From NCBI RefSeq assembly GCF_035953295.1, contig NZ_CP108370.1:2294001-2358000 (forward strand): DNA of 64,000 nucleotides, written 5' to 3'. This stretch comes from Streptomyces sp. NBC_01335 (GTDB lineage: Bacteria; Actinomycetota; Actinomycetes; Streptomycetales; Streptomycetaceae). This document shows, piece by piece, positions 23,224 to 24,936 of this stretch (position 1 is its first letter; each line of letters begins with the position of its first letter). The notes below the pieces were generated by a model. The model did not search any database. It saw only the letters and a program-made list of their open reading frames with translations, and had not been told where the DNA came from. The translations under genes were made by a program, and so were the position numbers.

Positions 23224-23841
23224 TTACCTGCTGTAGTTCTTCCCGACGGGCCTGCCGGGGATCGGCTTGCCGATGAGAGCGATCGGAACGAACAGGGAGA
23301 GCTGGCCGATGGCCAGGGCGAGCGCCCAGATCGCCTCCTCGTCGTAGAGAGCTGCCACTTCGGCGAACAGCTCGTCGGAGACGCGCTCCCCGAAGGGGTT
23401 CGGGGTGAGGACGGCCTCCGTGAGCTTCAGTGCGACTCGTTCGGAGTCGGTGAAGAAGGGGGCGTCCTGCCACGTCGCCACGGCGGTGATGCGCGTCTCG
23501 GTCTCCCCGGCCTTGCGGAGGACGCCGGTCAGGGAGACGGCGTGGTAGGTGCTGCCGACGATCTGCGCGCCACGGAGCATCGACAGGTTGATGGCGGCCT
23601 GCGGAACCGGCGCGTTCCGCAGGGCGTTGCGCAGCGCTCCGGAGAGTTTCGGCAGTTCGGGGAAGAGCCGGGTGAGGTCGGGCAGACGCGACTGGACTCC
23701 GCCGTCCTCCTCCGCCTCCGGGCCGGTCGCGGGGCCGGTCACGGGGGCGCCGGCCGGATCGGTTGCCGGGCCGGTCGCCGGATCGATCGCAGGCGCGGTC
23801 GCCGGGTCGGTCGCCGGTTCGGTCGTGCTTCGCGTGGACAT
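23224..23841 (-). CDS. Carboxymuconolactone decarboxylase-like protein lacking CxxC
   Basis: 205 residues. Residues 8-45 are a disordered Pro/Ala/Asp/Thr repeat (PATDPAT-like). The rest is an all-helical CMD/AhpD-like domain with LPDLTRLFPELPKLSGALRN and FTDSERVALKLTEAVL. Where AhpD enzymes have a redox CxxC before His, this protein has GSTYHAV, so peroxidase chemistry by that pair is not possible. CMD-like genes are the standard partners of ECF41 sigma factors, and one is divergent here. The start is ATG 23841 behind GGAGGAAGGGA. Confidence 0.8.
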   Translation of the reverse strand: MSTRSTTEPATDPATAPAIDPATGPATDPAGAPVTGPATGPEAEEDGGVQSRLPDLTRLFPELPKLSGALRNALRNAPVPQAAINLSMLRGAQIVGSTYHAVSLTGVLRKAGETETRITAVATWQDAPFFTDSERVALKLTEAVLTPNPFGERVSDELFAEVAALYDEEAIWALALAIGQLSLFVPIALIGKPIPGRPVGKNYSR

Positions 23842-23884: not shown

Positions 23885-23950
23885 CGACAACGCAGGGGTT
23901 CCGAATGTGAGGCGGGCGCAGGCCTCACATTCGGTGGGGCTGCCCGGTCG
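23885..23950. promoter_or_regulatory. Symmetric bidirectional ECF41-type promoter
   Basis: A perfect 13-bp inverted repeat, CCGAATGTGAGGC (23901-23913) and GCCTCACATTCGG (23922-23934), has an 8-nt centre. Reading outward, both strands give CCTCACA, 17 nt, then GTCG (plus 23923-23950; minus 23912-23885). ECF41 promoters are described with a TGTCACA -35 and CGTC -10, which this resembles. It would drive the sigma gene and the CMD-like gene together. Confidence 0.65.
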
Positions 23951-23994: not shown

Positions 23995-24936
23995 ATGCCC
24001 ATCCCGTACGAGCCGGACGACGGCCGCCCCGATCCGGGTCCGAGCGCGGTCATGAGCGAGCGACGCCGGCTGATCAACCTCTCCTACCGGCTCCTCGGCT
24101 CCCTCACCGAGGCCGAGGACGCCGTGCAGGAGACGTACGCCCGCTGGTACGCGCTGTCACCGCAGCAGCGGCAGGCCATCGACTCCCCGGGCGCCTGGCT
24201 GAACAAGGTCGCCGGGCGCATCTGCCTCAACCTGCTCGGCTCCGCACGCGTCCGACGGGAGACGTACGTCGGTGAGTGGATTCCCGAGCCGCTGCCCGAA
24301 CCCGCGGAGTGGCCCGGCGGTCGGGCGGGAGGCTACAGCGCCATGGACCCTGCCGACCGCGTCACCCTCGACGAGTCGGTCGGCATGGCCTTCCTCGTCG
24401 TACTCGAATCGATGACCCCGGCCGAACGCGTCGTCTTCGTCCTCCACGACGTCTTCCGCTACCCGTTCCCCGAAGTCGCCGAGATCGTCGGTCGCACCCC
24501 GGTGGCCTGCCGTCAGTTGGCCTCGTCGGCCCGCAGGCGTATCCGTACCTCACGGACACCCGAGTCCCCGACCGCGCTGCGGGCCGCCGTCGTCAGGAAC
24601 TTCAAGCAGGCCTGGGAGGCCAAGGACATCGAGGCCCTCATCGGTCTCCTCGATCCGCGGGTCACGGCGACCGGCGACGGCGGCGGCCTCGCCACCACGG
24701 CGCGCCGCCCCTTCGAAGGCGCCGGGCAGATGGCGCGGGGCCTCGTCGGCCTGGTCGGCGGAGTGACCGGTCTGACGTTTCTGGAGCGCACGGTCAACGG
24801 GCAGCCCGGCCTGGTCGCTCAGCAGGACGGCGTCGTCGTCACCGTGTACGCGTTCGACATCGCGGGTGGCCTGATCACGCACATCTGGGCCGTGCGCAAC
24901 CCGGAGAAGCTCCGGCCGTGGACGGTGAGCCCCTGA
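23995..24936 (+). CDS. RNA polymerase sigma factor, ECF41/SigJ group
   Basis: 313 residues. Region 2 (about 15-85) has LINLSYRLLGSLTEAEDAVQ; region 4 (about 130-185) has SMTPAERVVFVLHDVFRYPF. The linker carries WIPEPLPEP, typical of ECF41. A fused SnoaL-like C-terminal domain contains NGQPGLV and NPEKL, the motifs that tune ECF41 activity. There is no anti-sigma gene, as expected for this group. The start is ATG 23995 with GAGGA upstream. It is divergent from the CMD-like gene. Confidence 0.92.
   Translation: MPIPYEPDDGRPDPGPSAVMSERRRLINLSYRLLGSLTEAEDAVQETYARWYALSPQQRQAIDSPGAWLNKVAGRICLNLLGSARVRRETYVGEWIPEPLPEPAEWPGGRAGGYSAMDPADRVTLDESVGMAFLVVLESMTPAERVVFVLHDVFRYPFPEVAEIVGRTPVACRQLASSARRRIRTSRTPESPTALRAAVVRNFKQAWEAKDIEALIGLLDPRVTATGDGGGLATTARRPFEGAGQMARGLVGLVGGVTGLTFLERTVNGQPGLVAQQDGVVVTVYAFDIAGGLITHIWAVRNPEKLRPWTVSP

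Follow-up and report, generated by a model that had tools for sequence, protein, structure and literature searches.

An inverted repeat between two divergent genes in the window (the whole 64-kb stretch of DNA that we analysed) is very probably the upstream part of two back-to-back promoters, both read by the ECF41 sigma factor that one of these genes encodes (23995-24936, plus strand). The start of the sigma gene at 23995 and that of the minus-strand gene at 23841 are separated by 153 bp, and the repeat lies in the middle of this intergenic region. Each arm is 13 bp long; the right one (23922-23934, GCCTCACATTCGG) is the exact reverse complement of the left one (23901-23913, CCGAATGTGAGGC), and 8 bp separate them. 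Outward from each arm, the two strands read CCTCACA-N16-[G/T]GTC. On the plus strand, the predicted sigma-gene promoter has its -35 box, CCTCACA, at 23923-23929 and, 16 nt after it, its -10 box, GGTC, at 23946-23949. On the minus strand, the predicted partner promoter has the same heptamer at 23906-23912 (read from 23912 to 23906) and, again after 16 nt, TGTC at 23886-23889 (read from 23889 to 23886). A G follows each -10 box, and the two heptamers are 10 bp apart (23913-23922). Both heptamers, and the GTC core of the partner-side -10 box, are kept in relatives.

A preliminary description of this DNA had placed a perfect 13-bp inverted repeat between the sigma gene and a CMD-like gene, with CCTCACA 17 nt before GTCG on both strands; the coordinates were checked and both statements are exact, 17 nt to GTCG being 16 nt to GGTC or TGTC. 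Its reading of the arms as -35 elements stands, each arm being the -35 of its own promoter, and its proposal of two divergent ECF41 promoters is supported by relatives, which keep both -35/-10 pairs and their 16-nt spacers, by a gene-blind scan and by the published consensus. The further idea that one site sets a fixed ratio of sigma to partner is unsupported: the sigma-side -10 box is GGTC but that of the partner is TGTC, and a fixed ratio is not established because two promoters whose -10 boxes and leaders are not alike can be unequal in strength.

Published studies of other ECF41 loci lead us to infer that the sigma factor would recognise both window promoters and that its C-terminal extension would restrain it. 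RNA polymerase with the ECF41 sigma factor would bind CCTCACA at -35 and GGTC at -10 and transcribe the sigma gene itself, and the same holoenzyme on the mirror copy, CCTCACA with TGTC, would transcribe the CMD-fold partner (23224-23841). The locus would then be a positively autoregulated module of sigma factor plus target.

Rarity of the motif and identity of the sigma factor

The motif TCACA-N16-NGTC occurs once on each strand of the window, both times at the site at 23885-23950. When the 153-bp intergenic region was dinucleotide-shuffled 20,000 times, 134 of the products carried it on at least one strand and 1 on both strands, and the [CG]CTCACA form appeared on both strands in none of 20,000. 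Across the 8.36-Mb genome to which the window belongs, CCTCACATTCSG-N12-GTCG has two exact matches, which are the two window promoters; with two mismatches allowed, the nine matches in that genome amount to background, given 19 for a reversed-pattern control. On its own, the palindrome carries less weight than the promoter pair, because the window holds seven distinct 13-bp perfect inverted repeats with loops of at most 20, against 0.15 expected per shuffled 64 kb (100 shuffles). The six further repeats, perfect over at least 13 bp and with loops of at most 20, are at 2657, 15970, 26105, 38267, 42679 and 62962. On a 106.9-kb contig of the same genome (C2, 53509-53536, minus strand), 21 of the first 22 bases of another stretch (L015) equal the window's plus-strand -35 box and early spacer; this stretch has no -10 box, and the resemblance is perhaps due to chance.

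The plus-strand gene encodes an ECF41-type sigma factor of 313 residues with a C-terminal extension, as assigned from Pfam, NCBIfam and structure matches. Regions 2 and 4 are present (Pfam Sigma70_r2 and Sigma70_r4_2, both above cut-off), the NCBIfam SigJ model is matched to residue 308 at 282.8 bits (cut-off 271), and the best solved-structure match is SigJ of Mycobacterium tuberculosis (5xe7), covering residues 22-306 of 313. Region 4 reaches only to about residue 183 of 313, in keeping with the C-terminal extension of about 100 residues expected of ECF41. This extension contains DGGG and NPEKL, which we take to be ECF41 extension motifs. At residue 95, between regions 2 and 4, the protein has WIPEP, which differs by one conservative change from WLPEP, the ECF41 motif at that place (PMC3426412). 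SigJ, likened to our protein by the structure match, is a named ECF41 example in PMC8999054. The closest sigma paralogue in the genome is also an ECF41 protein, 60% identical (L010; contig C1, 4122030-4125893). The exact motif is absent upstream of this paralogue, where we found only a degenerate partner-side CCTTACC-N16-CGTC, and this counts against the ECF41-promoter reading. The degenerate motif precedes an open reading frame for a membrane protein that resembles those of two loci described below (L100 and L102).

Conservation and layout of the promoter pair

Both promoters, with exact 16-nt spacers, are present in the four putative Streptomyces relatives first found by gene homology; the identity of the arms varies among them, and the gap between the -35 boxes is 8, 12, 31 and 31 bp (10 in the window). 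Conservation of the spacing in relatives had been set beforehand as a test, and these exact 16-nt spacers passed it. The wider set comprised 80 of 153 loci, from named actinobacteria, and 27 of the best sigma relatives. In 141 loci, we searched the roughly 140 nt before the sigma start for TCAC[AGT]-N16-NGTC, with an opposite TCAC[AG]-N16-NGTC beside it. No ECF41 match was present in 26 of these loci; of the other 115, 90 had both promoters, 10 had the sigma-side promoter only and 15 lacked a sigma-side promoter (among the sigma sequences of these 90 loci, 88 are distinct and have 200 residues or more). In the gene-homology set, window included, each strand carries a correctly spaced promoter in 64 of 88 ECF41-bearing loci, a count that leaves out L171-L200 (30 of 36 pattern-scan sites), which were selected by the double-promoter motif itself. 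The pair was not found in the remaining 24 of the 88 gene-selected ECF41 loci, and this is counted against the ECF41-promoter reading. Some genomes occur in two sets (L050 and L191, probably also L130 and L200). The CCTCACA variant of the ECF41 -35 box is common in relatives; GGTC as a sigma-side -10 box is rare (3/90 loci).

The same arrangement was recovered by a scan blind to genes. We searched 394 class-level actinomycete genomes for GACG-N16-TGTGA-N(2-32)-TCACA-N16-CGTC and found one site in each of 36 genomes, from 18 of 137 genera, against 1 site for the reversed pattern. When 30 of the pattern sites were made into loci, 27 had an ECF41 gene nearby, and in 25 of the 30 the ECF41 match starts 30-91 nt beyond one -10 box and reads away from it; three (L184, L188 and L190) had no ECF41 gene within the stretch around the site. 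At the 36 sites, the -35 boxes had a gap of 9-12 bp in 17 cases, -1 or 0 in 5, 5-6 in 6 and 14-24 in 8. With gaps of 29-59, the same pattern gave 14 sites in 13 of the same 394 genomes, so widely spaced pairs exist too, and ECF41 promoter pairs are compact often, not always.

A similar picture holds where genes guided the selection. The gap is 9-12 bp in 42 of the 64 gene-selected two-promoter loci and exactly 11 in 28 of them; it is at most 0 in 5 and at least 14 in 15. With the motif-selected loci included, it is 9-12 bp in 52 of 90, the extremes being -2 and 101 bp. Of the 90 loci, 52 have the same heptamer in both -35 boxes (CCTCACA in 41) and 38 have two different ones; past the heptamer, the arms agree at 3.52 of 6 positions when they belong to one locus and at 3.15 of 6 when two loci are compared. 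The palindrome as such is therefore not required, because the heptamers differ in 38/90 loci and the outer arms barely match above the between-locus level, and it is best understood as one consensus present twice. In 32 distinct gap-11 sites, the -35 boxes hold 2.0 and 1.7 bits per column, the -10 boxes 1.7, the spacers about 1.2 and the gap 1.1, so that the gap appears about as conserved as the spacers, whether through inheritance or through constraint.

The 9-12 bp layout occurs with GSTYH-type CMD partners and also with SnoaL_4/LUD (L064, 11 bp), DoxX (L182, 11), an FMN reductase (L194, 11), an FAD-binding oxidoreductase (L178, 12), a beta-lactamase fold (L197, 9) and an unclassified membrane protein (L102, 11). 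Other gaps accompany YceI (22, L050), a CMD protein with CxxC (34, L062), an NAD-binding protein (5, L172) and an alpha/beta hydrolase (-1, L185), and the gap is 6 in 5 of 6 loci with a transporter family that is MMPL-like by eye only. On a quick tree of 88 rows, in which 33 of 85 inner branches are weakly supported, the gap class changes 20 times and the partner class about 22 times; these partner classes are approximate, because the start codons were set by a mechanical rule and several reads seem to be out of frame (a cluster of 9 around L093, and L116, L119, L125, L127, L132 and L143). Taken together, the compact layout is favoured, not fixed, and it is kept across several unrelated partner genes. 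Two sharper descriptions were tried and rejected. Gap classes with sharp borders find no support, given the scatter from -2 to 101 and the 20 class changes on the quick tree, and neither does helical phasing: of the 37 gaps that fall outside 8-13 bp, 22 share the phase of an 11-bp gap, against about half expected by chance.

Two loci have unusually long gaps, of 35 and 38 bp, that look as if the -35 box had been duplicated: L094 contains TGTGACGTCGG units and L129 a second TGTGAGG, in each case extra copies of the -35 heptamer inside the gap. In four others (L100, L102, L117 and L124), a small membrane-protein gene is inserted between the sigma and CMD genes, and the promoter pair stays by the sigma gene and faces the inserted gene, with gaps of 11, 11, 12 and 0; the inserted protein of L102 has no Pfam match.

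These comparisons also bear on what else the repeat might be. The perfect 13-bp symmetry in the window, the identical heptamers in 52 of 90 loci and a gap that is often 9-12 bp could suggest that the palindrome is mainly an operator for a dimeric transcription factor controlling both genes, with the likeness to -35 boxes secondary. We consider this quite improbable, because the GTC cores of the -10 boxes and the 16-nt spacers are conserved along with the arms, the distance between half-sites varies from -2 to 101 bp and so is not constant, the half-sites differ in 38/90 loci, and symmetry beyond the heptamer is barely above the between-locus level. That one arm is a working promoter and the other a decoy or relic would fit the 10 of 115 ECF41 loci with a sigma-side promoter only and the unusual sigma-side GGTC of the window; however, 64 of 88 gene-selected loci preserve the two promoters at the exact spacing, and both strands are kept in the nearest putative Streptomyces relatives, which makes this reading highly improbable. 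With six further short-looped perfect inverted repeats of 13 bp or more in the window, the repeat might be taken for an RNA hairpin, a terminator or a palindrome due to chance, but it lies between divergent genes and ends no transcript, the search for a terminator-like site or an Rfam match at the gathering threshold gave neither, and the shuffles and the conservation of both promoters speak against chance. We therefore give this last reading almost no credence.

Within the preferred reading of two divergent ECF41 promoters, the back-to-back geometry might itself be a control device, although we regard this as rather doubtful. Two ECF41 polymerases would come into contact at their upstream faces, because the -35 boxes are usually 9-12 bp apart and are kept so while the partner is swapped, and loading at one promoter would help or block loading at the other. 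The locus would be an auto-amplifying switch with the output of sigma factor and target tuned by geometry, and the driven CMD-fold protein, its redox cysteines lost, may bind or sense and not act as a peroxidase.

A partner protein without the CxxC motif

The partner gene (23224-23841, minus strand) encodes a CMD/AhpD-fold protein of 205 residues with GSTYH in place of CxxC, an assignment based on Pfam, a structural model and homologues. It matches Pfam CMD (PF02627) at 26.8 bits (cut-off 23), as expected of an ECF41 neighbour gene. An AlphaFold2 model (mean pLDDT 82.2) predicts the all-helical AhpD fold, matching 2ijc (PA0269/AhpD) with a TMt of 0.88-0.89, and the sequence resembles 7xw1 at an E value of 1.6e-12. 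AhpD/CMD proteins such as PA0269 (2ijc, 2o4d and 7xw1) thus share the fold and sequence likeness of the partner, but they have CxxC, whereas alignment puts GSTYH, with its S..H, at this place in the partner. Inside the gene, five copies of a 23-nt direct repeat (window 23718-23824) encode a repetitive N terminus rich in Ala, Thr, Asp and Pro, which is modelled with low confidence.

Among the best 120 of 661 partner homologues, query included, 114 have S..H, 5 have N..H, 1 has S..Q and none has C..C. The absence of CxxC is judged from these best 120 of 661 and not from the 80 of 153 loci that were fetched by peptide patterns holding GSTY or GKNY, whose motif is consequently uninformative on this point. 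According to the 2012 study, all ECF41-linked CMD proteins keep CxxC (PMC3426412, section 20); the window partner does not have this conserved motif, and on these alignments its branch is an exception to that statement. A literature search for CMD proteins without CxxC yielded only PMC3426412. Given the change from CxxC to S..H, the known thiol chemistry is not expected. A CMD partner lacking CxxC speaks against this branch serving simply in peroxide defence.

Wider targets and published ECF41 systems

The motif also precedes genes that lie away from ECF41 factors. In 24 more distant CMD-like proteins from Streptomyces (L021-L043 and L045), N or S replaces the first Cys and L the second, and TCAC[AG]-N16-CGTC lies upstream of 21 of the 24 genes. 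An ECF41 match lies within about 1.5 kb on each side of only one of the 24 (L021), and within about 8 kb on each side in 2 of 15 loci that were re-read. Judging by these upstream motifs, such genes may be read by ECF41 factors in trans. The compact double promoter, recognisable from DNA alone, is a route to ECF41 loci and their targets, including targets away from sigma genes, and it raises a well-defined question concerning two polymerases on a single short piece of DNA.

ECF41 comprises about 400 proteins from 10 phyla, and the inducing condition was not known to the study that described them (PMC3426412). That work gave the promoter consensus TGTCACA-n16-CGTC, mapped start sites and showed reporter activation for ECF41 promoters in two other species, and reported 36 sigma-side and 41 partner-side promoters in 55 divergent ECF41 loci (PMC3426412, Table 4). 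Like the window, the divergent ECF41/COE loci of Wecke et al. 2012 (PMC3426412) have a sigma gene divergent from a CMD-family gene and a promoter motif with a 16-nt spacer before both. The window follows the ECF41 promoter (TGTCACA, 16 ± 1 nt, CGTC) only as a variant, with CCTCACA at -35 and GGTC or TGTC at -10, and CCTCACA together with GGTC is counted against the ECF41-promoter reading. Searches of PMC3426412 and PMC8103513 for 'palindrom' and 'inverted repeat' returned 0 uses, and the literature searched holds no report of a compact back-to-back or palindromic layout, a weak absence in that later subscription work on ECF41 lay largely outside it. Relative to the loci in PMC3426412, the window differs in that its -35 boxes, with 10 bp between them, make up a palindrome, an arrangement on which that paper is silent, and in that its CMD protein is without the CxxC that the published ones keep. 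In conclusion, the divergent ECF41 promoter pair is real, mostly known and of a variant subtype, with its arrangement already in print (PMC3426412); the new details are the recurring compact layout and the missing active-site cysteines of the partner.
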